From: Chitinivibrio alkaliphilus ACht1
GTDB lineage: Bacteria > Fibrobacterota > Chitinivibrionia > Chitinivibrionales > Chitinivibrionaceae
NCBI RefSeq assembly: GCF_000474745.1
Contig: NZ_ASJR01000011.1
Coordinates: forward strand, 1-64,000
Reading direction: 5' to 3'
Length of the DNA: 64,000 nt
Part shown: in pieces, positions 19,493 to 36,875 of the stretch
Position numbering within the stretch: the first letter of the stretch is position 1
How the letters are laid out: every line of letters starts with the position of its first letter
Notes under the pieces: model-generated
What the model was told of the DNA's origin: nothing
The model's input: the letters and a program-made list of their open reading frames with translations, nothing else
Databases searched by the model: none
Position numbers and translations under genes: made by a program

Positions 19493-20960
19493 AAAGAGCT
19501 TCTATGCGCTGAACATAGCCGTCATTGAGTGCTTCGCGTATGTTCTCAGCGGTGTAGCCAACATTCTGGTTTGCTCCATCAATAAAACTATTCCATGCAT
19601 CAATATAGGTGTAGCCAATGTCGGAATATTCACGAATACGAGGTACGGTGGTAATGGAGTCGGTAATTTGAAATTGTAGCTGCTCAATGGAGGTTCGGTA
19701 GATATCCCCAACCCATCCCATATCATATGTCTCAGCAATGTTAAACAGAATATCGCGACGCACGGGGATCATGCCAAATTGCGCAGATTCATTTACATGC
19801 ACGCCTCTATTGGTGATGAATTTGGCAAGTTGGTACCCCATGTCTGCATTGGGAGAGGAGGTTGGTACACCCCACCACCATCCACCGACCGTAATTCTCC
19901 GAGAACCCTCAAAGCGGGGTGTGCCATCTTCATTGAGGGTAAAGGAAACCCCCTTAGGTACAACGGCTACGCCCATATCACTTGGATCTTCAAGGAACGA
20001 TTGCATTCCCGGGTCTTCTTCCCAGCCATGAATATTAAAACAGTCAATTTGTTGCATGTATGCCAGAAAGACGTTTCCGTCTTGAATGCCAGTATAAATA
20101 TCGTTTCCTCTCCAGCGGTTATTCCATATTCCAGGGTTGTAGATACCCATATCGATAAACACTTTTTCCCATAGATAGGTTTCGTCAACGGCATCGCCAC
20201 TCATAGAAATTATATCATCTCGTGTTGCCCCCAGTTGGTAGGCACGATCTACGAAAAAGAGCGCTGTACCCTCATACCGATCACCACGATGGGCAATTCG
20301 TCCAGTTCGGCGACCGTAATATTCCTCATTGGCCCAAATATACCCTACGGTAAACAGGTCGTAGAAGTCCCAGTCAGAAGGATCTTTTGAAAGTTCATAT
20401 TCTCGTGGAAGCCCAAACCCATTTGCTTCCTGTAATACTGAGTCTATTTCAGCACGGTAGTCATCAAATTTAGAGTAGGCGTCTTCAACTTTGCTTTTCC
20501 GATAAAACAGGATGCGTGTTTCAAGTTTTCGGGGTATATAGTAGTAGTTTCCTTTTTGAGTCCCGAGCTCTTTGGCAAGGGGGTGGTAGACACGCATATC
20601 CTGTTCAAGGTAGGCGGGGTCTGTTTCGATATCGCTCAAACGATGAATATATCCTTCTTCAACAAGTTGTTGGGTGATTTCAAAGGGGGCCTTTACGAGA
20701 GATATTTCATTTCTATTTTGATCCAATTCAAGGATTCTTCGCAGGTCAGCAGCGTTTCGAAAGTCCGCGATATTTACTTTGACATTGTAGCGATCTTCAA
20801 AGCGGGGGACAATTTCATTTTCAAAAAACCGTTTTTGTGCATCCAACATGCGAATCAAGACGGTTATTTCCTCTTTCTCTTTTCGGGGCCCGCATCCGCT
20901 AAAAAGGGTAAAAAGCGAAAGTGCGAGAAGAGAAAGGATTACTGTTTTTCCATATTTCAT
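19482..20960 (-). CDS. ABC transporter substrate-binding lipoprotein, family 1
   Basis: A 492-residue extracytoplasmic binding protein. The ATG at 20960 is chosen because GGAGG lies a few bases upstream; an earlier in-frame start lacks this. The signal ends in a lipobox (LFSGC), so it is lipid-anchored. The mature protein has the family-1 solute-binding layout, with EIVPRFEDRYNVKVN early and VGGWWWGVPTSSPN in the C-lobe, where Trp-rich segments usually stack on sugars. Ligand not predictable, though in a probable polysaccharide degrader oligosaccharides are likely. First gene of the transporter operon. Confidence 0.9.
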   Translation of the reverse strand: MKYGKTVILSLLALSLFTLFSGCGPRKEKEEITVLIRMLDAQKRFFENEIVPRFEDRYNVKVNIADFRNAADLRRILELDQNRNEISLVKAPFEITQQLVEEGYIHRLSDIETDPAYLEQDMRVYHPLAKELGTQKGNYYYIPRKLETRILFYRKSKVEDAYSKFDDYRAEIDSVLQEANGFGLPREYELSKDPSDWDFYDLFTVGYIWANEEYYGRRTGRIAHRGDRYEGTALFFVDRAYQLGATRDDIISMSGDAVDETYLWEKVFIDMGIYNPGIWNNRWRGNDIYTGIQDGNVFLAYMQQIDCFNIHGWEEDPGMQSFLEDPSDMGVAVVPKGVSFTLNEDGTPRFEGSRRITVGGWWWGVPTSSPNADMGYQLAKFITNRGVHVNESAQFGMIPVRRDILFNIAETYDMGWVGDIYRTSIEQLQFQITDSITTVPRIREYSDIGYTYIDAWNSFIDGANQNVGYTAENIREALNDGYVQRIEALFEE

Positions 20961-21034
20961 CAAGGCCTCCAATACATAATATGATTTGCCAAGCAAGTAA
21001 TATATAAATTATACCATGATGCGGGTTAAATTTC

Positions 21035-23329
21035 TTAGAAATCTTCCCTTTTCCGTTCCTCATGGATACTTTCCTTATCAAGTATCTTTTGCCCCATAAA
21101 ACGAATAAAACTTTCAGCCATAGAGGGGGTGGATGTCATGGCTTTACGAAGATCACTGTACTCAATGACAAAGAGGGTGCAGTTGTCACGGGCTACAGCA
21201 GAGGCTCGTCGTATACCACGACTCAAAGCTCCTGCTTCTCCATAGGACTCACCAGTTGTTCGTGAGCTCATATGTTTGGAGTGTGGCTGTCCAACATTCT
21301 GGATAATATCTAGGGTGCCTTCGTAGATGAGAAAGAGATGTACCGCCTTGTCTCCCTGTCGGGAAACGATCTCCCCGGGCTTGCAATGAAGTAGACGTGC
21401 TTGTTCAGCAATATGTACCAGATCTTTTGCCAATACGTTTTTGAAGATAGCGATGGTTTTGAAAAAGATTATTTTTTCAACAATTTCAAGGGTTTCTCGT
21501 TTCAAATCACCCTCCTTTGTAGTTTCATCAAGGACCTTCTCTATTATGTAGAGGTTTTTATTTTCCATTTGTTTAAAAAACCGTTTTGCCTGTGCCGCTG
21601 TCGTTTCGGTGTACGAAAAATAGGTGTAGTGCCAGAGAAGCACCACCTTTTGGTGCCAGCGATTTGTTGTCTCAAAGAAGAGTTCTGTTCCGGCTGTAAT
21701 ATTAAAGAACCGTTGCCCTACTTCTGAGTAGGTTTTCCATGGGCTGTCTTCCAGAATTGGAATGAGAATATCTTTGAGGCTTGAGTTGGGTAACATTTCA
21801 ATAAGCTCTACCAAGGAGGCGCGGTCATCACTATCGTAGAGAGAGAACTCTTGCCGGGCTTTGGTAAGAAATGAAGCTCCTTCAAGAATAACGAGGGTGT
21901 TGAACACCGTATGTCCTGCATCTAAAAGTTCTCCCCGAAGATACTCTTCCATGAGGTTCGTAACGGGTGATTTCTTGATGTGGGGAACCTTTGTACACGC
22001 AGTGTAATATACTGATGCTTTTAAATACGCTTTTTCACACTGAGCTTGTGCATAGGCACGAATACCATGGTAATGACTCCATTCATGGGGAGATATGCTT
22101 TGGTAGTATTTTGTACGCAGGGCTACCAAGGCTTCGATAATTTGTGGATTAATGGCTGCTTGGGGATATTCCTTGATAAAATTATTCAGAACAACCACTT
22201 TATCCCGAGGTAGTGTTCTCAGTTTTTTAATGATAATACGACGCTTCGTTGTTTCAAAGTATTGACAGAGATAGAGAAGGCGTTCCAGTTCCATGTCGTT
22301 TGCCTTTGTGAATATGGCATCCACAATATGGCTTACTTTTTCATTATCGAAATAACCGAGGTTGTTGAGAACTTCTTCAGAAATACCATGTTTACGTAGA
22401 TGTAGCAACCCCATTATCCCGTATTGTCGCTCTTGAAAAGGGGTGTCGGGTTCTGAAATGAGCGAAGAAAAGTACGTTCGTGCCCAGCTTTTATCTACCA
22501 CGCTATGAGTAGACAGGGCAAGAATGGCATAGTATTTATCCCGGGGGTTTTCCGTGAGAATAAAACGAGACCAAATGGTATCACGATAGTCATCAATGGG
22601 GATATCATTGTAAAATAGGGACAAGAGGAGTTGATTGTAAACTTCCGGTTTTGAAACCGTGAGATAATGAGATATTATCTGTGTTCGTGGTATGGTACTC
22701 AACTCTCCGCATGAACGGGCTATAATTTTCATGATGCCCAGGTCGGTCTCCTTTCGAGCTATTTGGACAACCAAGGCTTCAAGGTCCTTCTCGTCTGAGT
22801 GCAGAAGTATGTTGACAAGAAATCTCTTGATATCCCTTTCGTAGGAATCATAGTTAGTAAGAAGGGCCGTCATATCTTTAATTTCATGACTCGCAAGGTT
22901 TTGGGCGAGGGTTGAATAGAGATTATAATTCAGATTCGATTTCTGGTAAGTTGCCCCCGTCGTGAGGGTACGAATATACGTGTTCTGGATTTTTTTTCCA
23001 AAGTAGAACATGAGCCATCCGGAAAGAGAAACCGTGGAGATAATTAACCACGGTGAATCCTGATAGAGGATCAGCAGTATGGCGGAGCCTATAATTGCTG
23101 CCGGCTTTATAATTCCTTCAATCACTGTTTTAGATCGGCCACGTTTTTCCTTATCTATGGCGGCAAAAAACATTTGGTAAATGGGAGAGAAAAAGTTTTC
23201 AAAGAAGGTGTATCGGACTACCTGAAGAAAGAGGAGCAAAAAGAAGGGAATACCAAATTCGATTGTGCTCCCAGAAAAGGCCATAAACACAAGAAAAAGG
23301 GTGGCTCCAAGTGAGAGGGCTCGTGGCAT
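21035..23329 (-). CDS. C-terminal part of MFS-like/HEAT/cNMP-binding membrane protein (split by frameshift)
   Basis: This 764-codon frame starts in the middle of a membrane helix bundle at a methionine that is not a real start: the frame is open well upstream of 23329. It holds the last membrane helices, a long HEAT-like helical repeat region (for example YAILALSTHSVVDKSW), and a C-terminal cyclic-nucleotide-binding domain (LLHCKPGEIVSRQGDKAVHL...GESYGEAGALSRGIRRASA). One extra base in the T6 run on the minus strand (plus 23485-23490) joins it to the ORF at 23395-24222, giving about 1,062 residues. The combined architecture resembles TLC-like (ATP/ADP translocase-like) or MFS transporters fused to HEAT and cNMP domains. 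Role unknown. Confidence 0.75.
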   Translation of the reverse strand: MPRALSLGATLFLVFMAFSGSTIEFGIPFFLLLFLQVVRYTFFENFFSPIYQMFFAAIDKEKRGRSKTVIEGIIKPAAIIGSAILLILYQDSPWLIISTVSLSGWLMFYFGKKIQNTYIRTLTTGATYQKSNLNYNLYSTLAQNLASHEIKDMTALLTNYDSYERDIKRFLVNILLHSDEKDLEALVVQIARKETDLGIMKIIARSCGELSTIPRTQIISHYLTVSKPEVYNQLLLSLFYNDIPIDDYRDTIWSRFILTENPRDKYYAILALSTHSVVDKSWARTYFSSLISEPDTPFQERQYGIMGLLHLRKHGISEEVLNNLGYFDNEKVSHIVDAIFTKANDMELERLLYLCQYFETTKRRIIIKKLRTLPRDKVVVLNNFIKEYPQAAINPQIIEALVALRTKYYQSISPHEWSHYHGIRAYAQAQCEKAYLKASVYYTACTKVPHIKKSPVTNLMEEYLRGELLDAGHTVFNTLVILEGASFLTKARQEFSLYDSDDRASLVELIEMLPNSSLKDILIPILEDSPWKTYSEVGQRFFNITAGTELFFETTNRWHQKVVLLWHYTYFSYTETTAAQAKRFFKQMENKNLYIIEKVLDETTKEGDLKRETLEIVEKIIFFKTIAIFKNVLAKDLVHIAEQARLLHCKPGEIVSRQGDKAVHLFLIYEGTLDIIQNVGQPHSKHMSSRTTGESYGEAGALSRGIRRASAVARDNCTLFVIEYSDLRKAMTSTPSMAESFIRFMGQKILDKESIHEERKREDF

Positions 23330-23394
23330 GTATAAAAAGACACGGGTAAAGCCCCGTTCACTTACAATATCTGGAGTGATATGTCGAAGACTGG

Positions 23395-24222
23395 TTATGG
23401 TGATAAGACTATGAGCAATATAAAATGTGAATTGAAACCCCGCAAGATTAGTAGAGTCTTTATAGATAGAACTGGTAATAAACCAAAAAAGTAATCAAGC
23501 ATAAATATGGCTATGTACGTAAAGAAATAAAGATATCCAATATTTTTTACCAAGGGCATGGTAAGAATCTCTTTGATATCTCCTATCAGTGATCGTGTGT
23601 TTTTACTTCTTCCCGAAATGGCTTCTATGGGGACAAGGTGTTGTCCGTAGATGGAATTGAATTTTGCGGTGTAAAGATAGGCAAGTATATAGAGAAATAC
23701 CCAGAATAAAAGGATGAATTCAGGGGAAAATGGGATAAGAAGCAAGCGCGATGCAATGGCACCTGAAAGCCCCCCGATGAATCCCCACGCGGTTATCTCT
23801 GGAAAAGATAGTTTCGCCTCCATTGTATCGTTAACATCAACAGCTACTGTCCAGAATGTGAGAAAGAGAATGGTTTTTAAGAGATAAGAAAGCGGATAGA
23901 GTATGAGTAAAAATGCTGTGTAAAAGGTAAGGTCTGCGGCCGCACTTAGGGTGTAAAGGATAAAAAGGATGCTGACAATACCTATGGCAGCTCTCAGAGT
24001 CTTTTGCAGAAGATTTCCTCGATGTGAAGAGTCAATCTGTGAAAAGAAAAAAGTGGGCAGCAAAAACAGAAGTACACCGTTAATAAAATTAAGCTTTGAG
24101 AGTACTGAGACACCGACTTCAGAGACAATGAGGGAGGTAACCCCAGTTTCTCCAACAATGGTAGCGCCGAAGATAAAGTACAGGAGACGTGCAAGTTGCT
24201 GCTTCTTTCCTGGTTTGTCCAT
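23395..24222 (-). CDS. N-terminal part of MFS-like/HEAT/cNMP-binding membrane protein (split by frameshift)
   Basis: A 275-codon frame with about six membrane helices, starting MDKPGKKQQLARLLYFIFGA. Roughly the first 245 residues look native; after FMLDYFF the reading goes out of frame and ends about 30 codons later. In the shifted frame the sequence continues smoothly into the helices and repeats of the ORF at 21035-23329. The start lies only 20 bases after the T8 side of a strong terminator hairpin, so the gene may depend on read-through from the TonB-type operon or on a promoter within its last gene. No strong ribosome site is visible. Confidence 0.75.
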   Translation of the reverse strand: MDKPGKKQQLARLLYFIFGATIVGETGVTSLIVSEVGVSVLSKLNFINGVLLFLLPTFFFSQIDSSHRGNLLQKTLRAAIGIVSILFILYTLSAAADLTFYTAFLLILYPLSYLLKTILFLTFWTVAVDVNDTMEAKLSFPEITAWGFIGGLSGAIASRLLLIPFSPEFILLFWVFLYILAYLYTAKFNSIYGQHLVPIEAISGRSKNTRSLIGDIKEILTMPLVKNIGYLYFFTYIAIFMLDYFFGLLPVLSIKTLLILRGFNSHFILLIVLSP

Positions 24223-24242: not shown

Positions 24243-24270
24243 AAAAAAAAGGACCGGAATACTCCGGTCC
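24243..24270 (-). terminator. Intrinsic terminator of the TPR/ExbBD/TonB operon
   Basis: GGACCGGA and TCCGGTCC form a perfect 8-bp stem over a four-base loop; read leftward it is followed by eight T. It lies 37 bases after the outer-membrane-protein stop at 24308 and just before the start of the split MFS-like gene. Confidence 0.9.
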
Positions 24271-24307: not shown

Positions 24308-25573
24308 TTAAAAATGAAATCCTGCACTGATGTGAGAAGAAATATGCCCGAGGTTGCCGCTAAAGATATTGCCAAAGGTATAGAAAATATCTTCAGCTAT
24401 TACTGCATCAACATAGAGCCGGTCTTCAATATTCAAGCCAAGACCAAAGGAAATCGTTGGAGATTTTCCGTGCTGATCTTTTTCTGCAATGCCATTAAAA
24501 TACTCACCCAAATCACCATCTTCATAGGTAACCTGTGATAAGAGCTGTTGTGCACCAACTCGCCAAACGAGCCAGTCAGTAAGCATGTTTCGCTCAATAC
24601 CAATCATTACTTTACCCCCATACTCATTCCGTTTGCCGTAATGAATATGGTTATTGGTAGATGCGGTATCTACAACGGCACGGCTGTCATTTTCATAAAA
24701 CCCTTCTAAGCCAGCCCAGAAGAAACCACGGTCAATTCTGCTGGAAATACCAAACCCTGCGTTAAAATCAGTAATACGCTCATCATCGTCGTAATTAATG
24801 ACGTTAGCCTGAATATGAGGAACGAAGGTTTTGTAATCATCTAAGTAGGCAAAAAGGCGAGCATCAATCGAAAAGGAGATATCATTATACATGGTCGTCG
24901 ATTCATTATGAAACCGAGAGTGCCCGTCGAGGGTAAGGGCTGCGATATTAAAAGACGCATCAAGGTCCACATTGGGAGAGACTTCGCCATATACCCCGAA
25001 GGCCCCTTTTGCTACGCGGGTCATTTTGTTTCTTCCAGCTCTATCGGTGGAATCTTGCATCGCAAGATAGCCCGATGCACCTAAGGCCCATCCGTTTTCC
25101 AATACATATGCCGCTTGCAAATCAATTTTTGCTTGTACATCGTCAAGAAATGATACACTTTCCCAGCGATCGTTTCGTGCATCCTTTGGAGTGCCCACAA
25201 ATCGATCTGAACCGGGGAGCACGTAATCGAGGTATTGGTCATACCGATTAAAGGTTGCACCTAAGTAGAGACCGGTCATATCTTCACGTTGTGAGATATA
25301 GTAGGTCCCCCCAAAGTATGGTCGTAAAGGGTCTGTATTGGTAAATTCAGGGGCATCTTCATCAGTAGAGTATGCCTCTTCATTTGTGTAGACCCCAAGG
25401 TCTCCAAGAAGCATCCCATTATACCGAGTGATAAGAGCCGGATTTCGATAGATGGATATGTTGTCCATAATATAGAAATCTGTCCCACCCATGGTCTCAA
25501 TACGGGCATTGCTTGCCAGTATTGGTGTTGCACAAAGAGCAAGGCTCAATAGCAGGCCAATTCTTGTTTTCAT
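24308..25573 (-). CDS. Putative outer-membrane beta-barrel protein of the TonB-type operon
   Basis: A 421-residue exported protein. The ATG at 25573 is preferred since GGAG lies upstream at the right distance. The signal peptide is MKTRIGLLLSLALCATPILA. The mature N-terminus NARIETMGGTDFYIMDNISI with YRNPALITRYNGMLLGDLG resembles the start of PorV/FadL-type barrels, and alternating hydrophobic strands with Tyr and Gly continue to the end, which finishes SAGFHF with the terminal Phe typical of BAM substrates. It is the last gene of the operon and may be the outer-membrane client of the motor. Confidence 0.78.
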   Translation of the reverse strand: MKTRIGLLLSLALCATPILASNARIETMGGTDFYIMDNISIYRNPALITRYNGMLLGDLGVYTNEEAYSTDEDAPEFTNTDPLRPYFGGTYYISQREDMTGLYLGATFNRYDQYLDYVLPGSDRFVGTPKDARNDRWESVSFLDDVQAKIDLQAAYVLENGWALGASGYLAMQDSTDRAGRNKMTRVAKGAFGVYGEVSPNVDLDASFNIAALTLDGHSRFHNESTTMYNDISFSIDARLFAYLDDYKTFVPHIQANVINYDDDERITDFNAGFGISSRIDRGFFWAGLEGFYENDSRAVVDTASTNNHIHYGKRNEYGGKVMIGIERNMLTDWLVWRVGAQQLLSQVTYEDGDLGEYFNGIAEKDQHGKSPTISFGLGLNIEDRLYVDAVIAEDIFYTFGNIFSGNLGHISSHISAGFHF

Positions 25574-25585
25574 ACACTTCTCCAT

Positions 25586-26362
25586 TTATTGTGTAAAGAC
25601 AAAGGGATAGGTAACACTTGTTACGTCACCGGGGATATCAATGGGGCCGAAATTCCACGATCTGATCCGCTCAACAACAAGTTCTTCAAACTCAGGATCA
25701 TTCATGGTTGTGCTCTCTACACTACAGTGGAGAACATTTCCGTCTTCGTCGATAGCCCAAGAGACCTCAATCATCCCTTCAGCGTCGGGATTGCTGTTTA
25801 GGTGTCGGTTGTAGGCATACTGCAGTGAGGCCATATTATTACGCACAGTACGCATAATATTTGCACGGCTTCTTCCACCTTCCATTCCTCCAGAAGAGGC
25901 TCTTTGGGTTGGTTCAACCTGTTGCACTTCACGGCGACGAATCTCTGTCTGTTGGGTTCGTTGTCGTCCTGAAAGTCCAGATAGATCAACGTCACCAGAT
26001 CCTCCACCAAAGCCTGACTGCGAACCGGATCCGCCAAACCCAATGCCTGATGCGGAAGCACGACCAGCGCCAGATCCACCGCCAGACTGTATGCCTTGGC
26101 TTCCGGATAAGAGGGCATCTACACCTTGGGCATGTCCGCCCTTAGCAAGTGGGTCGGCATTTGCAACTTCTTCACCAGTAATAGGGCCAGAAAGTCGTCC
26201 CAAAACACCACGTTTCATAACACGTTCACGTGGGTCTCCACCGCCTCCACCGGTTTGGGCTTCGGGGGTATCGTCGGGTTCGTCAGGTTTTAAGGTTTGC
26301 TTTTCCCGCTCAATTTGTTCTTGCTTTTCCGGTTCTTCCTCTTCCTCTTCTTCCATTACCAT
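25586..26362 (-). CDS. TonB-like energy transducer, AgmX/PglI-type C-terminus (N-terminus unresolved)
   Basis: From the first canonical ATG (26362) the frame gives 258 residues: an acidic stretch (M-V-M-E then eight acidic residues), a Gly-rich linker, and a C-terminal TonB-like domain (MRTVRNNMASLQYAYNRHL...GMIEVSWAIDEDGNV...IRSWNFGPI). The open frame extends upstream to 26524 through KGKRLKVVFPLVLLLFFWIG, a proper membrane anchor, but no ATG, GTG or TTG exists there; only ATT at 26524. A membrane helix is essential in this class, so either translation starts at a non-canonical codon or one base is missing and the upstream 139-codon ORF is fused to it (about 443 residues in total). Confidence 0.75.
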   Translation of the reverse strand: MVMEEEEEEEPEKQEQIEREKQTLKPDEPDDTPEAQTGGGGGDPRERVMKRGVLGRLSGPITGEEVANADPLAKGGHAQGVDALLSGSQGIQSGGGSGAGRASASGIGFGGSGSQSGFGGGSGDVDLSGLSGRQRTQQTEIRRREVQQVEPTQRASSGGMEGGRSRANIMRTVRNNMASLQYAYNRHLNSNPDAEGMIEVSWAIDEDGNVLHCSVESTTMNDPEFEELVVERIRSWNFGPIDIPGDVTSVTYPFVFTQ

Positions 26363-26496
26363 TGTTTCACCAAGGGTTACGCTCCTTGTTTCTTCCCGTG
26401 TTTGGAAGAAGTCACCGTCAGCACTGATAAACTTGTAGGTTCTGAAAAAGACACCGATCCAGAAAAAGAGAAGTAATACGAGAGGAAATACAACTT

Positions 26497-26916
26497 TTAA
26501 ACGTTTTCCTTTTCCGTATAGAATATGTCGGCACGTTGGTTCATGGCCTTCACATACTCTTCTTTTGTGAGAAGCACTCCTTCTTCCTCTTCTTCATCTT
26601 CGTCGTCATAGCCCTGAGTTGTTTTTTGGGGCTGCTCAGAGGCATCTACATTATCAGAGGGTGTCGATGTTGCTGGTTGTGTAGCAGAAGGAGTTGAGAG
26701 ATCTTTTACAACTGTCTCAGCCCCAAGGCTTTCAAACCTTGCGCGAAGCTCAGCAGCTTTTTCTTCACTGAAGTCCTTGCCAATAGAAATGCTCTTTGTT
26801 TCCAATGCTTTGCGTACTTGCTCAGCGGGAGCACCAGAGATTGCTGCTACTTCAGAAGAAACTCGCTCAAGGGTTTCCGGATCAGTAGTTCGTTTTAATA
26901 TTACTTGAAAGGCCAT
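26497..26916 (-). CDS. Protein with an L7/L12 C-terminal-like domain, probably fused to the TonB-like protein
   Basis: As read, 139 residues. Residues 1-70 (MAFQVILKRT...SEEKAAELRARFESLGAETVV) follow the pattern of the ribosomal protein L7/L12 C-terminal domain (F-x-V-x-L-K at the start; S-x-E-E-A-x2-L-x3-L-x2-A-G-A-x-V at the end), a ClpS-like fold. A Ser/Thr/Pro linker and a run of Asp/Glu follow, then LLTKEEYVKAMNQRADIFYTEK and a stop. The last residues run straight into the membrane anchor of the next frame if one base is added near 26500-26515. It would then be the cytoplasmic N-terminal domain of the TonB-like protein. Confidence 0.65.
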   Translation of the reverse strand: MAFQVILKRTTDPETLERVSSEVAAISGAPAEQVRKALETKSISIGKDFSEEKAAELRARFESLGAETVVKDLSTPSATQPATSTPSDNVDASEQPQKTTQGYDDEDEEEEEGVLLTKEEYVKAMNQRADIFYTEKENV

Positions 26917-26917
26917 A

Positions 26918-27463
26918 TCAGTCCTCCCCTCGTGACATTACGGCAAATTTCATTCCCGTAAAGCCCGTGCGGGCGCATATTTGCATAATATTAGTAACAA
27001 CACTCATATACATACTTTTGTCAACTTGTATAATAATTTGTCGCATACTCTGTTCGGTTATCTCGTTTAGTGCAAAGAGTTGCTCGTTGGCCTTCATATG
27101 CATAGAGAGACTGTCTTCCATGATCTGCAAAGCAACAGGTTTATCCTCGTCAGGTTCAGTGTCAAAATTAACAAAAACACTATCTGTTAAGGCAAGAATG
27201 TCTTCCGTTGCTACCAAATCCCGGTTATCCAAGAGGATACGACCAGGAGCTATGGTTAACTGAAGACGTACCTCATCGGGGGTATCCACGGCTATGGAGT
27301 TTGGAAGCGCCAAGTCATCCGATGCAGTAAGCATAGAGCCATCGGCAGAATAACTTTGCAGAAGAAAGAGAAGGATAATGGTGAACATATCCATCATTGA
27401 TGTAATGTTTAAGCCAAGATCAACATCTGCTGCAGAGCCGCCTCTTCCTCTTTGTTTTGGCAT
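26918..27463 (-). CDS. ExbD/TolR-family protein
   Basis: A 181-residue inner-membrane motor part. A short basic N-terminus (MPKQRGRGG) leads into the single helix LNITSMMDMFTIILLFLL, in which the Asp of SMMD is the likely proton-carrying residue of ExbD/TolR. A periplasmic domain follows. The two-base spacing to the next gene and the ExbB gene upstream place it in a proton-motive-force driven complex. It is one of two ExbD-type genes in tandem. Confidence 0.9.
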   Translation of the reverse strand: MPKQRGRGGSAADVDLGLNITSMMDMFTIILLFLLQSYSADGSMLTASDDLALPNSIAVDTPDEVRLQLTIAPGRILLDNRDLVATEDILALTDSVFVNFDTEPDEDKPVALQIMEDSLSMHMKANEQLFALNEITEQSMRQIIIQVDKSMYMSVVTNIMQICARTGFTGMKFAVMSRGED

Positions 27464-27479
27464 ATCGGTATTCCTTTCT

Positions 27480-28466
27480 CTAATTTGCTCTCAAACTGTT
27501 TAGGGAGAGGTTTACCAATCCCGCGTCTTGAGCAACATCCATTATTTGAACCACCTTGTCATAAAACACCTGTGGTTCTGAAGCGATAATCAAGCTGTTG
27601 CGGTCTTCCGCTTCTTCATTGCGAGCACGAACCTCAATAAACGCCTGCTTTAAAATGTCATAGGCAGAAACTGGCATTCGGCGATATTTTGAGAGATCTT
27701 CCACCTTAATTGTTCTTCGTGCTGAAATTGTATCCACAGGTACCATTTCGCCATCAACCTCTTCTTTGCGAACCTCCGTTCGACGGGTATACGGACTATG
27801 GTTTGTGGTAAACAGATAGACCTGATCCCCCTCATTCAACTCGTCCTCTTCTAAGGGAAAGAAGGGTCTTCTACTATTAAACGATTTCGATACATACTCT
27901 ATCTTCTCCAGCCCCGTTTCTTCGTCGCGGTCAAAACGATACCACCCATACCACGGTTCACCTGTTTTTTCAAAGGTCTCTTCGTCTATGGCCAAGGCAT
28001 TCAGTAGTATCTCATATCGCTCACTTCTGCGAAATTGTCCTCGCTCAGTTCGCATGAGAGAATCGGGATAGGTTTTATCATACTTATAATTACCATCCTC
28101 ATCATACATAATCTCATGATGATACGGTATGGTATCCATGGCATTGGTGCCGTCTGAGATGTACACATGCTCTTCGCTGTAATGAATACTGGCGAGCATT
28201 GCACTCTGCGTCATTAATGTCATGGCTGTATCAGAAACCAATACCGTAAACAGCATAAGGTTTCGTTCTTCTTCCAAATCCCGTTCGGTCTGCTGTACCT
28301 CGGTGGAGGAACCGCGTTCCTCCGGGAGGTTAATATCAATTGTTGCAATTTGAGCAAATTGAGCAGAGGCAAGCAGCAAGGGTATCAGCACCACCATGAG
28401 GTTCATGAAAGGCTTAAAGTCGATATCCTCAACTTTGATTTCATTCGTTTTTATTTTATTTGCCAT
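27480..28466 (-). CDS. Long ExbD/TolR-like protein with an enlarged periplasmic domain
   Basis: A 328-residue protein, more than twice the usual ExbD size of about 140. The N-terminus VEDIDFKPFMNLMVVLIPLLL has the family layout of a short cytoplasmic tail and one helix, but the usual proton-carrying Asp of the helix start is replaced by Asn (FMNLMV), with acidic residues only before it (EDIDF). The periplasmic part contains a long insertion (about residues 80-260, Tyr-, Arg- and Glu-rich) before a normal ExbD ending (VVQIMDVAQDAGLVNLSL). It may be a structural, non-conducting partner of the normal ExbD downstream. Confidence 0.8.
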   Translation of the reverse strand: MANKIKTNEIKVEDIDFKPFMNLMVVLIPLLLASAQFAQIATIDINLPEERGSSTEVQQTERDLEEERNLMLFTVLVSDTAMTLMTQSAMLASIHYSEEHVYISDGTNAMDTIPYHHEIMYDEDGNYKYDKTYPDSLMRTERGQFRRSERYEILLNALAIDEETFEKTGEPWYGWYRFDRDEETGLEKIEYVSKSFNSRRPFFPLEEDELNEGDQVYLFTTNHSPYTRRTEVRKEEVDGEMVPVDTISARRTIKVEDLSKYRRMPVSAYDILKQAFIEVRARNEEAEDRNSLIIASEPQVFYDKVVQIMDVAQDAGLVNLSLNSLRAN

Positions 28467-28501
28467 ACAATATGTCCTCTACTAAGGGTAGGTTTTCCAG
28501 C

Positions 28502-29173
28502 TTACTGTTCAATAAGGTTAATCAGTTTTGCTGTTTTTTCATCAAGGTCCTCTACCACTTTTTTAGATCGTTGCGCAAGAAACCCTTGCACGACAATACC
28601 GGTAACACCGACAACAAGACCGAAGAGGGTTGTTGACATCGCAACGGCAATACCATCGGCAAGAGCCGTTGAACGTCGTGCCGCTGGAGCATTTGCCACC
28701 GCGTCAAAGGAGAGCATCAGACCATAAATTGTACCCATAAGACCAATCATGGTGGAAATATTCGCAAATACATTCAAAAGAGAGATAAACCGAGTAATCT
28801 TTGGAGTTTCTGAAAGAAAGACCTCGTCTACGGCTTTCTGCACAGCCTTTGTACCCTTGTCGCGTTCGGAGAGAATAGGAATAATTGCCTTTGCAATAGG
28901 TTTCTTGGCATATTTCTTTTGCTGTGCAAACTTAATTGCCTTATCAAAATCACCTTTTTTCAGAAATTTAGCAATACTTGCCATAAAGGTGTTTGTACCT
29001 CCAGCAACACCGTACAAGTAGATAACTCGCTCTACTGCAAGAGCTGCGATAATACCACCAACAATGAGAATAAGGATCATTGCCCAGGCACCATCTGCCC
29101 ACTCTCCGGTTCTCTCATCGACAAAACCAGTTGCAATGTAGTCAAGAAATCCCTTTTGCATTCCGTCACTCAT
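28502..29173 (-). CDS. MotA/TolQ/ExbB proton channel protein
   Basis: A 223-residue inner-membrane protein with the three-helix ExbB layout: a helix near residues 28-50 (AMILILIVGGIIAALAVERV), a cytoplasmic loop (KKGDFDKAIKFAQQKK), and two helices in the C-terminal half (LLNVFANISTMIGLMGTIYG and MSTTLFGLVVGVTGIVVQGF). The Thr and Gly-rich helices line the proton path in the family. It forms the pentameric part of the motor with the ExbD proteins downstream. Confidence 0.93.
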   Translation of the reverse strand: MSDGMQKGFLDYIATGFVDERTGEWADGAWAMILILIVGGIIAALAVERVIYLYGVAGGTNTFMASIAKFLKKGDFDKAIKFAQQKKYAKKPIAKAIIPILSERDKGTKAVQKAVDEVFLSETPKITRFISLLNVFANISTMIGLMGTIYGLMLSFDAVANAPAARRSTALADGIAVAMSTTLFGLVVGVTGIVVQGFLAQRSKKVVEDLDEKTAKLINLIEQ

Positions 29174-29210
29174 AAGTAAACCCCTTATAAAAAGTTAGTT
29201 ATTGGTTGTC

Positions 29211-32200
29211 CTACTGTTCGTTAATACCGAGTATCTCTCGGTATTCACGTATTTTTTCTTCTTCTTCACGAAGCGCTCTTCGTGCATTTTCTTCAATTTC
29301 CATGAGGCGCTCAATTTTTTCTTCGATGGGCATCTCTGAATTTGCTATTCGGTCAATTGTCGCAAGTGCTTGCTTTCTTTCATCAGCAGTGCGACGTTTT
29401 ATCGCTGCAATTCGAGCTTGCTGGGCCTCTTCAGACTCTCGGTACTCTTGAAGAATCTCATCAAGATCCACTTGTTTATACTCTGAAGTGATTTGTCCCA
29501 TGGTTTCTATTTCAACCATTTCAATCTCTTTTTGAATACTGTCAATCCACTCATTATGTCCAATATGAAGGTTTATCGCTATATCAATAGTTTCTTCATA
29601 GTATGGTACAGAGGCTGCAATATACTGGAGATAATGGTCGTAGAGCTCGTCCATATATATCTGCTCTTCTTCTGCTGAAAGTCCTGCCGGCATGGGAGCA
29701 TCACGATAGAGTATCCCCACCTCTTTTAAAAGAAGTGCCTTTCGGTATCCACTCTCAACAACCAGTTCTCGAGCCTTGGGGATGTACTCGCTTTCAATGC
29801 CCTCAGCCTCAGCGCGCTCAATAAGGACAGACAAGTTTTCTATGGCACGATCGTATAGTCCAGGACAAACCCCTTTCAAGGCTTGAGCTCGTCCAACGAT
29901 CTGATCTTCCACATCTCCAAAGACTTTACGTTCTTCATACATTCGGGCATAGTCGTAATTAAGCTTTGCCAGTTGATACAGTGATTTTACAACCCACTCA
30001 CGAATTTGCTGCTCCATGGAGAGGGTGTATGCTTCAACGGTTTTCTCGATAATTTCACGAACATCGTCAATCTTGCCTTGGACCTCTCGTTCATTGGCAC
30101 CAGTACTAAGATCAAAGCGAAGAACCTGTTCGTGATTCAGCTGGCCGTACGTGTAATACGCCTCGGCACCAAGTTCCGGTGCGATGGCCGCTTCATCCTT
30201 GTATTCGTCGTAGATCCGCGTTGCGAGACGAACATTGAGTTCAGCATTGTCAAAGTCATCAAGCTCTACGTAGGCTCGGGTCGCATAAATGAGGGCCTGA
30301 ATTTGATTTGGTCGATGTCGTGAAAAGTTTTTCGCAAACTCTGCAAAGGCATCGGCCATGCGGCGTTGATCTCCCATTGCTTTATAGCAATACCCAATGG
30401 AAAAGGCACCATCGAGCCCTTCATCGGTCTCAGGGAATTCCTCTGCGAGAATCGTATATACTTCAATGGCACGTTCATAATTTTCTGCCCGATTTTCAAA
30501 AAAGTCACCAGCGCGATACAATGCGGCAGGCGTCTTTTCGTGCAGAGGATACTTGTTGTAGATTTCAACCATAACCTCACCGGCTCTATTGGGGGCTTGT
30601 GCGGTGTCATAGTAGTCCGCTGCAGTTGAGAAAAACGCGAGAGCCATTGCTGTATCACCAATGTTTTCAGCTGCTTCAATAGATATTTTTGCTGCCTCTT
30701 CGTATTTCTCGAGGTAGGCAAAGTTGATAGCAGCACGTCCATAAGCGTTTCGGCGCAATTCAACTTCTGCTTCTGGAAAACGATGGGGTAACTCTGAGAA
30801 AACAACTGCGGCACTGTCGTGCTGCTCAATTTCTTGAAACACGAGGCCCGCTTCAAACCATGCTTGTTTTCGGTGTTCACTCTCAGGGTAGAGCTCATCG
30901 ATGCTTCGGAATGTTTCCGTTGCTTCTTGATACGCCCCTTGGTTTTTCTGATAGTTTGCCTTATTGAAAAGGGTTCCCGATGCCAAGGCGATAAGGCTTT
31001 CTCGTTCAGCCCCCTCTTGAATTAGAATATCATAATGATGTACTGCCTTGTCAAACTGACGATCTGCCGCGAAGGCATCAGCAAGAAGTTTTCTGGCGTC
31101 CCAAATAATATCTTCATCGTCATACGATGCAAGGAGGGTTTTGCAATCTTTAATAGCCCCAGCATAGTCCTTACCGTCAAATTGAACACTTGCAGCAAGA
31201 AGAAGTACCTCTGCAGCATCTTCGGAATCGCTAAATCTCCTTTGGTACGAGTGGATGTACTCAATAAACTCGCGCGTTGAAGCAAGGTCATAGGATTCTT
31301 CTTCGCTGAGGCCGCGCTCTTTCATCTCTTGCTTGCGAAGCTCATTTAAACTAGCGATGGCGTTATAGCCAGCCTCTTCTTGAGATATCTGCTCAACACT
31401 TTGCTCTTGTTCTCGTCTCAGCTCTTCAATCATTTCTTCACTCATGCCAACGGTATCACCCATGTCCGGGGTATAGTCGGCATATTCTGAGAGATCGGCC
31501 TGCGCAACAAAGTCGTAGTATTCTGCAGCTTTTCTATGTTCTCCAAGGACACTGTAGATATCACCTGCATAGTAGTGGTATTGATATACTCGCCACTCAT
31601 CCTCGTCAAAATCAGAAATGAATCGATTATACATGGCAAGGGCTTGTTGATACTTCTCCACTCCTTCAGGGCTTGGTTCTCCCGTGTCGGTCGTGTCTTT
31701 CTGAGCCTCTGAGTGATAGTAGAGAGCTGTTGATGAAATGGCATCCTTGACATGCTCTTCTGCTTGTGCCAAGGCGATTGCATTATCACGGTTGTTCGCC
31801 GCCCATGATCCATCACGGTGGTATCTTTCAATAAGCTCTTCCCGTGCAGCGTTTGCCTCTTCATATCGTCGGTTAATAATGTGGGCATTCATAATGCGCA
31901 TTTGGGCCTTGGGGGCTCGTTCAAAATGAGGAAAACGTTCCATGGCTGTACTGAGGGCAAGTATTGCTTGGTCATACTGTCCATGTTCAAAGTTTTTAAA
32001 ACCAACTTCGTAGATTACCGTGTCTTCATAGGTTCTTTGGCCAACACGGTCAAAGTAGTCAAGGGCATGTTGAGCCCCTTCTTCTGGAAGATCTGAAAAG
32101 GCAAGGGAGATATAGTCAAGGGCATTACGACGAAGGTCTCCTCGAGGAAATATGTCGCGATCTACATTGTCCACATACTGCGCAAACATTTCCGCAGAAC

Positions 32201-32957
32201 GAAGAAGGTCTCCAATGTTATAGTAGATCTCGGACTTTCGATAATGGGCAAGTTCACGGTTGATGGCTGTGAGCTGCGACATGTCGATCTCCTTCAGATG
32301 ACGAAGGGCGTCACGGTGTCGAAACTCATCAAAATGCATTTGAGCAATTCTAAAGTGTGCATTGTTCACCAAACGGTGGTCTGGAGCATGCTCTATGAGA
32401 TCTTTGTAGGCCTGCATTGAAGAATCTACTTCACCACGCAGGTTATAGATACCCCCAATTTGGAAATAGGCGTTTGCCAGCTGATTTGATTCCGGATATT
32501 CTTCTACGGCTTGCTGATATGTGCGCAGAGCTTGTGTGTAGTCAGGGCGAGGAGCTGTTGGTCGGTCTCCTACGGGGTTTCTGTTCCATTCAGCAAACGC
32601 TTCCTCATAGCGGTTTTGGGCTTGCACAAATTCATTTCGTGCTCGTTGGTAATAGAGCCGTCCCAAGGAGTATATGGCTTCGGCACAGATGTTCCTTTGA
32701 AAACCCGTTGCATCTTCGCACCCATCAAGGGTTCGTTCATATCGTCGTATGGATTCATTAATGCTTTGAGCGGAGCGTTCATCATCGCTTCGGTCACGGC
32801 TACTTTCTCTGGTCTCGATACGTTCACGTTCTTCCCGGAGCTGTCTGAGCCGTTCCCGTATCTCTTCGGCCGATTCGGCAGAGCTTGTAGCGGGGAAGAT
32901 AAATCCGAATGAAATAAGTGCAATAAGCAGATATGTACAATTCCTCATGGTAACCAT
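29211..32957 (-). CDS. Very large exported TPR-repeat protein
   Basis: About 1,249 residues. The signal peptide lies in MRNCTYLLIALISFGFIFPA with cleavage near TSSAES. A short coiled coil rich in Glu and Arg follows, then many tetratricopeptide repeats through most of the length (for example ANAYFQIGGIYNLRGEVDSS, NNAHFRIAQMHFDEFRHRDA, AALYRAGDFFENRAENYERA). The C-terminus is again charged coiled coil (EEKIERLMEIEENARRALRE). The starts at 32957 and 32948 are both possible; AAGGAG is 3 or 12 bases away. It heads the ExbB/ExbD/ExbD/TonB operon and is likely a periplasmic scaffold or an outer-membrane-associated partner. Confidence 0.85.
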   Translation of the reverse strand: MVTMRNCTYLLIALISFGFIFPATSSAESAEEIRERLRQLREERERIETRESSRDRSDDERSAQSINESIRRYERTLDGCEDATGFQRNICAEAIYSLGRLYYQRARNEFVQAQNRYEEAFAEWNRNPVGDRPTAPRPDYTQALRTYQQAVEEYPESNQLANAYFQIGGIYNLRGEVDSSMQAYKDLIEHAPDHRLVNNAHFRIAQMHFDEFRHRDALRHLKEIDMSQLTAINRELAHYRKSEIYYNIGDLLRSAEMFAQYVDNVDRDIFPRGDLRRNALDYISLAFSDLPEEGAQHALDYFDRVGQRTYEDTVIYEVGFKNFEHGQYDQAILALSTAMERFPHFERAPKAQMRIMNAHIINRRYEEANAAREELIERYHRDGSWAANNRDNAIALAQAEEHVKDAISSTALYYHSEAQKDTTDTGEPSPEGVEKYQQALAMYNRFISDFDEDEWRVYQYHYYAGDIYSVLGEHRKAAEYYDFVAQADLSEYADYTPDMGDTVGMSEEMIEELRREQEQSVEQISQEEAGYNAIASLNELRKQEMKERGLSEEESYDLASTREFIEYIHSYQRRFSDSEDAAEVLLLAASVQFDGKDYAGAIKDCKTLLASYDDEDIIWDARKLLADAFAADRQFDKAVHHYDILIQEGAERESLIALASGTLFNKANYQKNQGAYQEATETFRSIDELYPESEHRKQAWFEAGLVFQEIEQHDSAAVVFSELPHRFPEAEVELRRNAYGRAAINFAYLEKYEEAAKISIEAAENIGDTAMALAFFSTAADYYDTAQAPNRAGEVMVEIYNKYPLHEKTPAALYRAGDFFENRAENYERAIEVYTILAEEFPETDEGLDGAFSIGYCYKAMGDQRRMADAFAEFAKNFSRHRPNQIQALIYATRAYVELDDFDNAELNVRLATRIYDEYKDEAAIAPELGAEAYYTYGQLNHEQVLRFDLSTGANEREVQGKIDDVREIIEKTVEAYTLSMEQQIREWVVKSLYQLAKLNYDYARMYEERKVFGDVEDQIVGRAQALKGVCPGLYDRAIENLSVLIERAEAEGIESEYIPKARELVVESGYRKALLLKEVGILYRDAPMPAGLSAEEEQIYMDELYDHYLQYIAASVPYYEETIDIAINLHIGHNEWIDSIQKEIEMVEIETMGQITSEYKQVDLDEILQEYRESEEAQQARIAAIKRRTADERKQALATIDRIANSEMPIEEKIERLMEIEENARRALREEEEKIREYREILGINEQ

Positions 32958-33058
32958 TGACTCCTTGCCGTTATCAAATTGTAAGCTACACCAGTTAAAC
33001 ATCTAATTTAAATTAAATCAAATCTTTTTGCTTATTTTTTATTCTTTTTGTCTAATTT

Positions 33059-34544: not shown

Positions 34545-34989
34545 GTTCCAGGCTTTCCCATCGTGTGATTTTCCATCGTTGTGAATCTCCGTATGTTAAA
34601 TATATAAGGATCTTTTCCTGAAGAGTGTCTTCGGGCAAGAAAATTGTAGATTTTCGCACGGGGAGTTCGTGCTCTGCTCCATCCTTGGGAAAAAACTCGG
34701 CGGAATCTCCCTGCCATTCAACACGAGGGGTGTGGCTTGTTTCGATGTCAATAAGGCGTTCTATGAATTCATCCCGATTCCATGTGTTTTCCCGTGCGTC
34801 GGTAAAACGAAAGCTCTGTGAGAAAAATGTGCCGTACTCAGCGGACGGTTCGAAGTTGATGTCCACGGTGCTTTGTATTATCGTCATAAAGTTAAGCGGG
34901 TCTGATATGTCGCCCTCCGGTTCTGGTGCTGATTCCGGTGAAAACAGAGCACAAGAAGAAAAAACAAGCGCAAAGAGTACAGTTTTCAT
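34501..34989 (-). CDS. Putative lipoprotein, NTF2-like layout
   Basis: 162 residues from ATG 34989, chosen because GGAGG lies five bases upstream. The signal MKTVLFALVFSSC has a lipobox (FSSC). The mature part contains MTIIQSTVDINFEPSAEYG, FFSQSFRFTDARENTWNRDE, and a closing strand DSQRWKITRWESL, matching the general pattern of the next gene. The ATG overlaps the end of the outer-membrane gene (ATGA). No known function. Confidence 0.7.
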   Translation of the reverse strand: MKTVLFALVFSSCALFSPESAPEPEGDISDPLNFMTIIQSTVDINFEPSAEYGTFFSQSFRFTDARENTWNRDEFIERLIDIETSHTPRVEWQGDSAEFFPKDGAEHELPVRKSTIFLPEDTLQEKILIYLTYGDSQRWKITRWESLEHDATKETSFFSPGY

Positions 34990-36875
34990 AAGGTCCTCCG
35001 GAGTGAAAGAGCAATATCCCATCTGCCGGTGGTGCGTGACCGTGACAGATCAAGATCATATCGTAGATGTCCTGATAAAAAATGAGTGTCTGACAGGAGT
35101 ATTTCGCCCTTGAGCTGGGGAGTAATAAAAAGGTATGATTGGGTTTGTGTATAGGAAGACACATAGTCCCATTCGTAAAAGGTGCTGTGCCGCAGGCGTA
35201 GGCCCCCCGTAAGGTTTCGTGTTTCTGCATCTCCTATGGAAGCGCCACCATAGAGCACTCCTTCTCGATTCTTTCGTGTTACCTCATAGGCATTATCGGA
35301 GATGTCGCCGTTGTCGTAGTAGTATAAGCCTCCTTCCCCATGGAGAGACACCGCTGGGTTGGGAAGTTCTTGCGTGGCGCGGGAGGTTACATAAAAGTGA
35401 CGACGATGCGTTGAGTCTGCATGGATAAAAAAGCGTGGCTCAACCCTCGCGCCAAGGTCGCTTTCTACTTCCAAGGTGCTACGAAGCTGTTTCGTTGCAC
35501 GAATACCACCGAAAATTTGTCGTCGAATATAGCTGTTGTGGCTTTGCTGTGGCGAGAGGTAATTGCTTGTTTCCCGGAGGCTGTGCAGGCGGGTAGTGAG
35601 GGAAAGGCGCGGAGAGATTTCTTTTTCAAATCGCCCCTCATGAGAAAGAAACTGTTTGTCATAATCAAGGTTATATTGGCGACCATTTACTTCTTTGGGA
35701 TAGGTACGGCGTTCTCGTTGTATGCTAAAGGAGTAATGTACGTCCATGGGAAGTCCTGTGTACACAAGGCTGTTTTTAAATAGAGGAGAAAAGAGTTCTG
35801 CATCTCGAATGGTAAATCTTGGGCGAAGTTCTTCATAGGTGTCTCGCTCTTTTTCATACTCGCGGTACAGATACGTAATGTCACCCACGGCAAGGGTGAG
35901 CTCGGCGCTTCCGTCTATGTGGGCATTATCGCCAATGGTATAGGGAAGATCTATGTGGGGGGAGAAATCACGTCGTCTTCGGCTTGCGCGACGATCTTCA
36001 TGAGGAAAGTGGTATGAATCGTGGCGGTAGTGGATATGGACATCAGGGGTTCCAATAATTGCCCTGTTTCCTTCCCCAAGTCCTGTAAGTGTACCGCTTA
36101 CATTGAGAGTGTTGTCTACGCGGAGCGGGGCACTGCTGAGATTTTCCGAGTAGCCGTATATGTTTCCCATGCGTCCATGTACTAAGGTGTCCGATGCAGA
36201 GATATGGAGAGAGTCAGCAAGAACCAGTCCTTCTCGGTGCCATGCCATGTGTGCGTTGCCACTGGTGACACGGGTGTTCACATCGCTGCCCATGTAGCGT
36301 CCGGACATGCTTCCCGATGCATAGAGTGAGTGGTTCGGAAACAGGGGGGTCTCTCTGTCGCCCGCAGAAAGTGAGAAATATACACCATCATCATAGGTGG
36401 CGCTGTCGAGAGGGGTGGCAGACCATGGGGTTTCAAGGGCGGTCGTCCAGATGTCAAAGGTGTATCCCCCTGATGCAACAAGGGGGGTAGAAAACAGCGT
36501 TGTTTGTACAACGGGGCCTATGGACAGGGAGGCAACACCGTAGCCGGCCTCAGATTGTGGTTGTTGCAAGTAAAAAGCGGGAGACAGCTCTATTCCCGGG
36601 TGAATAGTAGATGAGTTTACATGGAGCAACTTACTGTTCATCCCAAGATGTTGTCGTTGAGAACCTCTGCTTTGATCGTAGAGAAGCTGGTACTCTGTAG
36701 TATGTGAAAGGGTAAAGGGAGCAATGGTCGTGGTATAGCTATGGGATCCGTCCACGCTGAAATTGTCGTGGTAATAGTATGATTCTACAGAGTAATTATG
36801 CGCGGCGTACAGCTGCATGCTCAGCAGGGCAACGCAGATCCTTACGAGTAAAGTGTTTGGTATAATTCGAGCCAC
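34986..36875 (-). CDS. Putative outer-membrane beta-barrel protein
   Basis: A 629-residue exported protein from GTG at 36875 (GAGGTG six bases upstream). Signal peptide MARIIPNTLLVRICVALLSM ending near YAA. The rest alternates short strands rich in Tyr, Ser, His and Arg (YSFSIQRERRTYPKEVN, LSLTTRLHSLRETSNYLSP), consistent with a large barrel, and ends DIALSLRRTL. Not recognised; one possibility is an LptD-like or other translocation barrel but no defining motif is visible. It overlaps rsmA by 34 bases and the following lipoprotein gene by 4; tight coupling with two lipoproteins suggests one envelope complex. Confidence 0.72.
   Translation of the reverse strand: MARIIPNTLLVRICVALLSMQLYAAHNYSVESYYYHDNFSVDGSHSYTTTIAPFTLSHTTEYQLLYDQSRGSQRQHLGMNSKLLHVNSSTIHPGIELSPAFYLQQPQSEAGYGVASLSIGPVVQTTLFSTPLVASGGYTFDIWTTALETPWSATPLDSATYDDGVYFSLSAGDRETPLFPNHSLYASGSMSGRYMGSDVNTRVTSGNAHMAWHREGLVLADSLHISASDTLVHGRMGNIYGYSENLSSAPLRVDNTLNVSGTLTGLGEGNRAIIGTPDVHIHYRHDSYHFPHEDRRASRRRRDFSPHIDLPYTIGDNAHIDGSAELTLAVGDITYLYREYEKERDTYEELRPRFTIRDAELFSPLFKNSLVYTGLPMDVHYSFSIQRERRTYPKEVNGRQYNLDYDKQFLSHEGRFEKEISPRLSLTTRLHSLRETSNYLSPQQSHNSYIRRQIFGGIRATKQLRSTLEVESDLGARVEPRFFIHADSTHRRHFYVTSRATQELPNPAVSLHGEGGLYYYDNGDISDNAYEVTRKNREGVLYGGASIGDAETRNLTGGLRLRHSTFYEWDYVSSYTQTQSYLFITPQLKGEILLSDTHFLSGHLRYDLDLSRSRTTGRWDIALSLRRTL

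Follow-up and report, generated by a model that had tools for sequence, protein, structure and literature searches.

The Glt/Agl core complex is known from Myxococcus, Bdellovibrio and Gammaproteobacteria and is composed of GltC, GltD, GltE and GltG with AglR, AglQ and AglS (PMC3169522). It is widespread, and its known roles are gliding and spore-coat assembly. Homologues from Fibrobacter (F. succinogenes) were placed in this core by Luciano et al. in 2011 (PMC3169522). The window analyzed here is a stretch of 64,000 nucleotides from Chitinivibrio alkaliphilus ACht1 (Fibrobacterota; contig NZ_ASJR01000011.1, positions 1 to 64,000), with a GC content of 46.3%. It contains an operon for a TPR protein, an ExbB-type protein, two unlike ExbD-type proteins, a TonB-like protein and an outer-membrane (OM) barrel. 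Based on sequence similarity, this operon very probably encodes the Glt/Agl core complex as it occurs in Fibrobacterota. The best overall explanation is a Glt/Agl-type proton-driven trans-envelope machine with a surface-complex role, to which a probability of roughly 0.72 is given. The initial annotation had described a possible specialized envelope motor resembling gliding motors. The resemblance is supported, as the operon groups with the Myxococcus core; the system is not a new one, since the Fibrobacter homologues had been published. The most informative details are the loss of an aspartate (Asp) from the long ExbD and the PopA-type barrel, both of which had gone unnoticed.

The operon runs leftward from 32957 to 24308 on the minus strand. 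It is about 97% coding, and the intergenic gaps are mostly 0-37 bp. The order is TPR, ExbB, long ExbD, short ExbD, a 139-amino-acid (aa) open reading frame (ORF), TonB-like and OM barrel, with the following features (TM, transmembrane; AF2, AlphaFold2).

29211-32957, minus strand: exported periplasmic TPR scaffold, GltD/AgmU-like; 1,248 aa; TPR_6 1e-20 (Pfam)
28502-29173, minus strand: ExbB/TolQ-type proton-channel subunit, AglR-like; 223 aa; MotA_ExbB 1.4e-20
27480-28466, minus strand: long ExbD in the AglQ position; 328 aa; PF02472 1e-10; canonical Asp replaced by asparagine (Asn) at residue 22
26918-27463, minus strand: short ExbD in the AglS position; 181 aa; PF02472 1.7e-10; Asp kept at residue 25
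26497-26916, minus strand: ORF resembling the L7/L12 C-terminal domain (ClpS-like fold); 139 aa; AF2 and Foldseek
26505-26518, minus strand: apparent one-base frameshift at an A-run; tblastn frame switch, TonB frame without start codon
25586-26518, minus strand: TonB-like force transducer, GltG-like; TM helix at about 26506-26447, Gly/Lys-rich linker, AgmX/PglI C-terminal domain
24308-25585, minus strand: OM beta-barrel, PopA-superfamily-like; 425 aa; NF053618 (PopA) 48.8 bits, cut-off 150
24251-24270, minus strand: intrinsic terminator; 8-bp stem with 6 G-C pairs, 4-nt loop, U8 tail

The TPR protein is 1,248 aa long from the ATG at 32957, and an alternative start at 33002 would give 1,263 aa. 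All the genes that the initial annotation had named are present, including the AgmX/PglI tail of the TonB-like protein, and a good intrinsic terminator is present at the end of the leftward operon, as had been described. The gene list was incomplete in one respect; the seventh ORF (26916-26497) was overlooked.

Several lines of evidence link the operon to the Glt/Agl core. The tail of the TonB-like protein matches NF033768 (AgmX/PglI) with 80 bits, above the cut-off of 40, and the best full-length model is NF033760 (GltG) with 86 bits. True GltG (1095.7 bits) is among the Myxococcus proteins reached with a profile of the Fibrobacterota TonB-like proteins. The Fibrobacterota TPR profile retrieves GltD-like TPR proteins at the same gene position in Myxococcota, with ~250-417 bits over approximately positions 23-1140 of 1234 (~90%). 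AglQ scores 42.5 bits with the Fibrobacterota profile of the long ExbD (ExbDL) and 13.8 bits with that of the short ExbD (ExbDS), while AglS scores 96.9 bits with ExbDS and 11.5 bits with ExbDL. The Myxococcus genome, which was found through an MglA query sequence, has an ExbB-ExbD-ExbD trio, the first two proteins of which are 245 and 162 aa long, the sizes given for AglR and AglQ in PMC3169522. The genes for TPR784, GltD-like, GltE-like lipoprotein, ExbB, ExbD, ExbD and GltG-like proteins form compact clusters in other Myxococcota, and these are syntenic with the operon. In a quick maximum-likelihood tree of ExbB, Fibrobacterota sequences form one clade (SH-aLRT 98) together with ExbB from Myxococcota Glt clusters, apart from TolQ/ExbB paralogues; the support values are 96-98, and one long-branch paralogue from the genome of the window (contig C9 of G000) is misplaced on the Glt side. 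The GltG and AgmX matches, the ExbD and TPR profiles, the synteny and the tree thus argue that the operon is a member of the Glt/Agl core family.

The operon is not confined to one genome. Of 121 Fibrobacterota genomes, 113 have a relative of the long ExbD, and these represent 37 of 38 genera. Among 20 neighborhoods, some of which are truncated at the end of a contig or obscured by spurious ORFs that overlap the genes, the TPR-ExbB-ExbDL-ExbDS-TonB-barrel order recurs in the family of the window and in further families, both within the same taxonomic order and elsewhere in Fibrobacterota. Such recurrence across the phylum indicates that the gene order is more than chance. The operon is not a standard Tol or TonB system either, so that neither of the two outcomes named by the initial annotation as refuting its view was obtained. 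Outside the family of the window, a ~500-aa gene (with OmpA and beta-helix in locus L055) and a ~750-800-aa TPR gene are commonly found upstream.

The two ExbD proteins differ at the residue that carries the proton. In the alignment to a solved ExbD, the canonical TM Asp is Asn in the long ExbD of the window. In 50 Fibrobacterota rows, which represent ~40 distinct loci because some places were fetched twice, this position is N in 32, G in 8, A in 4, S in 3 and C in 3, and is never D. The short ExbD has Asp in 49 of 49 rows, and both TM threonines of ExbB (TM2 and TM3) are invariant in 46 of 46. The residues of a 5:2 proton motor are thus present in ExbB (46/46) and the short ExbD (49/49), but not in the long ExbD (0/50). 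In Myxococcota, the pairs are N-or-G/D in 20 cases, D/A in two and D/D in 15 including true AglQ/AglS, and both Asp residues are lost in none, in a set mostly retrieved with the ExbDL profile and hence biased toward similar sequences. The two D/A pairs (L204 and L209) are the reciprocal case, where the short ExbD has alanine at the Asp position (MMALFT) and the long-type ExbD has Asp. The N/D state requires more than one change on the ExbB tree.

In the pairs examined, Asp is lost in one partner but never in both, which is most simply read as an axle that is an obligate heterodimer and requires one Asp or more. From these alignments, the odds that the long and short ExbD form an obligate heterodimer appear about even. 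It is tentatively proposed that Fibrobacterota and many Myxococcota Glt-type clusters have an obligate two-ExbD axle in which only one ExbD is proton-capable. Such a 5:2 motor would be asymmetric, with a single active Asp per axle and approximately 5, not 10, proton transits per turn, and in Fibrobacterota it would be coupled to a PopA-type OM oligomer. A review of 5:2 motors from 2022 leaves open whether AglQ and AglS assemble as heterodimers or homodimers (PMC9389320). The asymmetric axle, if true, would settle this for AglQ/AglS-type pairs. The natural loss of Asp, reciprocal in a few Myxococcota, is evolutionary evidence on this question and makes it testable. No description of an Asp-less ExbD partner was found in the open-licence papers searched, and the Asp loss in the long ExbD with an Asp-keeping partner is new as far as found.

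The TonB-like gene is split in the window. Its TM helix is VVFPLVLLLFFWIGVFF, and the frame is open back to 26596 with no ATG, GTG or TTG start. The helix is encoded upstream of the ATG at 26362, so the protein cannot begin there as the initial annotation had proposed. In relatives with the same gene order, the L7/L12-like domain, the TM helix and the TonB part are encoded in a single ORF of 412-460 aa in all sampled but one. In the exception (L054), the gene is split at another place than in the window, and the break may be an assembly fault. The tblastn comparison of a single-ORF relative (L050) with the window showed a frame switch near 26510, at an A-run. The start-less TM frame and the single ORF in relatives indicate a one-base frameshift at this site. 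The adjoining cNMP-binding transporter gene also has a one-base shift, at a T6 run at ~23489-23484 (near 23487), and is one ORF of 1,053-1,091 aa in relatives. As two one-base breaks at homopolymers lie within 3.1 kb, both are probably sequencing errors. Programmed -1 frameshifting, for which an A-AAG slip site is present, is less likely, given the continuous ORF in relatives and the second homopolymer break in the neighboring transporter. A separate cytosolic gene for the 139-aa ORF was rejected, since relatives encode one continuous ORF.

The AF2 model of the 139-aa ORF has a pLDDT of ~88 over residues 1-70. The best Foldseek matches are 2zjq and 1ctf (L7/L12; TMt 0.78-0.83, E 6-9e-4), with TMt 0.83 and 1.7 Å for 1ctf; ClpS is matched too, more weakly. 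The TonB-like protein in the order of the window is thus predicted from the model to bear a cytosolic domain of the L7/L12 fold, which is new as far as found. GltG-type proteins of Myxococcota have an FHA-like N-terminal domain in the corresponding position, as judged by eye and, for true GltG, in a separate check. The FHA domain of Myxococcus GltG is replaced by the L7/L12 fold in Chitinivibrionales, and Fibrobacteraceae have no such domain. The cytosolic contact of the transducer therefore appears to vary by lineage.

The barrel has no match to any Pfam family, including receptor or plug domains, and a PDB profile search with it gave no match. A single-sequence AF2 model had a pLDDT of 29 and was discarded. 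All 16 aligned relatives match the NCBIfam PopA model; the protein of the window does so with 6.7e-13 and 48.8 bits, under the curated cut-off. The ties are weak, and the barrel may be described as PopA-superfamily-like, which is new as far as found. A 2025 paper named FSU_2404 of F. succinogenes as a hexamer of the PopA superfamily (PMC12228718). By its locus number, FSU_2404 directly follows FSU_2403, which encodes the TonB protein; in the loci of Fibrobacteraceae, the barrel gene comes next to that for TonB, on its downstream side. The PopA paper is silent on ExbB, TonB and Glt. The recurrent link suggests that one branch of this new superfamily has a motor as its partner. In 12 Myxococcota genomes that have Glt clusters, the barrel profile found no match, which suggests that the linked barrel was added in Fibrobacterota.

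The barrel raises the main rival to the surface-complex motor, namely a motor for OM maintenance. Such a motor would act on a PopA-type lipid-trapping barrel, for example to constrict the OM, handle lipids or form vesicles, in a manner like Tol-Pal without being Tol-Pal. In its favor, loci throughout the phylum recurrently end with the barrel gene, and the PopA model is matched in 16 of 16. The genome, however, has a separate Tol-Pal-type cluster (G000:C2), the motor works without the barrel in the 12 Myxococcota genomes, and the link between barrel and motor is known from gene order. OM maintenance is thus rather unlikely as the main role.

Pfam searches of the operon proteins found no TolB, Pal or TonB-dependent receptor (plug domain PF07715) inside the operon, in agreement with the initial annotation. 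A TonB2-like cluster with a clear TonB_C match (2.7e-17) is present at contig C13, and the 11 plug-domain matches in the genome are all outside the operon. With the Tol-Pal-type cluster, these support the claim of the initial annotation that the operon is neither plain TonB uptake nor Tol-Pal. A third ExbB-ExbD-TonB cluster (L181; G000:C9:90000-105000) is followed by a receptor with its own N-terminal TonB_C domain; the ExbB of this cluster is a long branch near the Glt clade in the ExbB tree.

The counterpart operon of F. succinogenes, FSU_2400-2403, appears in cellulose-proteome papers (PMC6851124, PMC4619616). Its proteins are 1.2-1.7-fold up on cellulose, and the authors of the proteomic study hence proposed cellodextrin uptake (PMC6851124). 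FSU_2397/2396 were found in a complex with cellulases and a fibro-slime protein (PMC6851124). If this proposal is applied to the operon, ExbB, ExbD and TonB would energize the import of cellodextrin or chitin oligomers via an OM channel, and the operon does hold a TonB-like protein and a barrel. This barrel, however, is PopA-like without a receptor or plug match, and the plug domains and the TonB2-like cluster sit elsewhere. In Ton and Tol transducers, a conserved histidine (His) makes the motor contact (PMC12204202), but His is absent from the TM helix of the TonB-like proteins in 17 of 17 sequences. TonB-type uptake also gives no reason for a 1,250-aa TPR scaffold or for two unlike ExbD proteins. 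Uptake is therefore very improbable.

An MglA-type GTPase, 58% identical to Myxococcus MglA, is encoded in the genome of the window (G000:C2:106765-107334). MglA-like GTPases with 58-62% identity are present in nine of nine Fibrobacterota genomes tested, though Fibrobacter is described as non-motile. As a side observation, the MglA in a record titled 'Comamonas sp. KCTC 72670' (L059) shares 99% identity with the Myxococcus-type query, which suggests a wrong title or a mixed assembly.

Several observations weigh against a Glt/Agl-type machine with a surface role. MglA is not specific to Glt machines, and its presence in all nine genomes fits a surface motor without being specific for it. The GltG match is under the equivalog cut-off of 650, so the TonB-like protein is GltG-like, not GltG itself. 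In a search confined to the operon, no GltE-like lipoprotein gene was found; such a gene lies between TPR and ExbB in Myxococcota only. The 786-aa GltC-like TPR gene and a beta-helix-type gene that match the upstream genes of other families are unlinked to the operon, at G000:C16. D16 of the long ExbD, six positions before the lost Asp, is nearly invariant. It could take over part of the proton role, and the one-Asp axle is what we infer from the alignment; as a substitute proton carrier, D16 is unproven, being six residues off and N in three rows. F. succinogenes has been described as lacking active motility (PMC3079729). Lastly, the Glt core genes are insufficient for motility, and gliding is undocumented in most carriers (Luciano et al., PMC3169522).

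The last two points bear directly on a true gliding motor, by which Chitinivibrio and Fibrobacter would move on solid substrates. Homology to AglRQS, GltD and GltG, the MglA in nine of nine genomes and the report that F. succinogenes degrades crystalline cellulose along a crystallographic axis (PMC3079729) are consistent with gliding. But motility of F. succinogenes is undemonstrated (PMC3079729), the core genes alone do not suffice in Myxococcus (PMC3169522), and a polar flagellum was observed in C. alkaliphilus ACht1 (PMC4704652). GltA, B, F, H, I, J and K, which are specific to Myxococcales and Bdellovibrionales, were not found in the operon, and no genome-wide search was made for them. Full gliding is improbable as the function.

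The Nfs version of the machine moves spore-coat polymer in Myxococcus (PMC3858216). This precedent, and the fact that the core genes alone do not drive gliding, favor a surface-complex motor on insoluble polysaccharide, which is a possible but uncertain biological role. The Glt core is kept throughout Fibrobacterota, whose members are known to attach to insoluble polysaccharide and to degrade it, and the F. succinogenes proteins are up on cellulose. C. alkaliphilus itself lives on chitin. In the proposed machine, a long and a short ExbD would pair to form a heterodimeric axle inside the ExbB pentamer. The short ExbD would be the sole proton carrier, and the long ExbD would be the structural half with an enlarged periplasmic domain. 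The GltG-like protein, with the cytosolic L7/L12-fold adaptor in the order of the window, would transmit force through the periplasm to both the TPR scaffold and the barrel. The machine may move or position a cell-surface adhesin or enzyme complex on chitin or cellulose, and is less likely to serve full gliding or the uptake of nutrients.

The cNMP-binding transporter gene (21035-24222) adjoins the operon downstream and encodes a transporter-like TM region and a C-terminal cNMP-binding domain. This gene and a ~500-aa gene (together 19482-24222 in the window) also trail the barrel in L050, L052, L055 and L056. The downstream transporter is thus itself a conserved neighbor in several relatives. 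Two large ORFs upstream of the operon, at 34986-36875 (629 aa) and 37747-40206 (819 aa), have no Pfam match at 1e-5.

Compared with Tol-Pal and Ton, the operon shares the motor fold (ExbB/TolQ with ExbD/TolR) and the TonB-type C-terminal domain. It differs in having no TolB, Pal or plug receptor, in its two unlike ExbD proteins and in a TonB-like TM helix without His. Compared with the PopA superfamily of radial OM oligomers (PMC12228718), the barrel matches the model in 16 of 16 relatives, whereas the score in the window is below the family cut-off; its linkage to an ExbB/ExbD/TonB operon is not mentioned there.

The F. succinogenes cluster FSU_2396-2404 (PMC6851124, PMC4619616, PMC12228718) consists of OmpA, TPR, 147-kDa TPR, ExbB, 32-kDa ExbD, 18-kDa ExbD, TonB and PopA-type barrel. 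The last six genes match the order in the window. Unlike in the window, OmpA and a second TPR are linked, and in the Fibrobacteraceae examined the TonB protein has ~310 aa and lacks the L7/L12-like domain. The Nfs/Agl spore-coat machine of Myxococcus (PMC3858216) has the same motor class with an exchangeable Glt-like transducer, and is a precedent for a non-motility role in moving surface polymer. Nfs has different OM parts and is sporulation-specific.

The closest likeness is to the Glt/Agl core. The operon has no GltE-like gene between TPR and ExbB, and in the family of the window no GltC-like TPR gene is linked to it. Its long ExbD has no Asp, a loss also seen in many Myxococcota clusters but not in AglQ. 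It adds a PopA-type barrel, and its GltG-like protein has an L7/L12-like instead of an FHA domain. The GltD-like TPR, the AglR-like ExbB, the AglQ/AglS-like ExbD proteins and the GltG-like protein are held in common, and the genes shared with the compact Myxococcota clusters are clustered in the same order.

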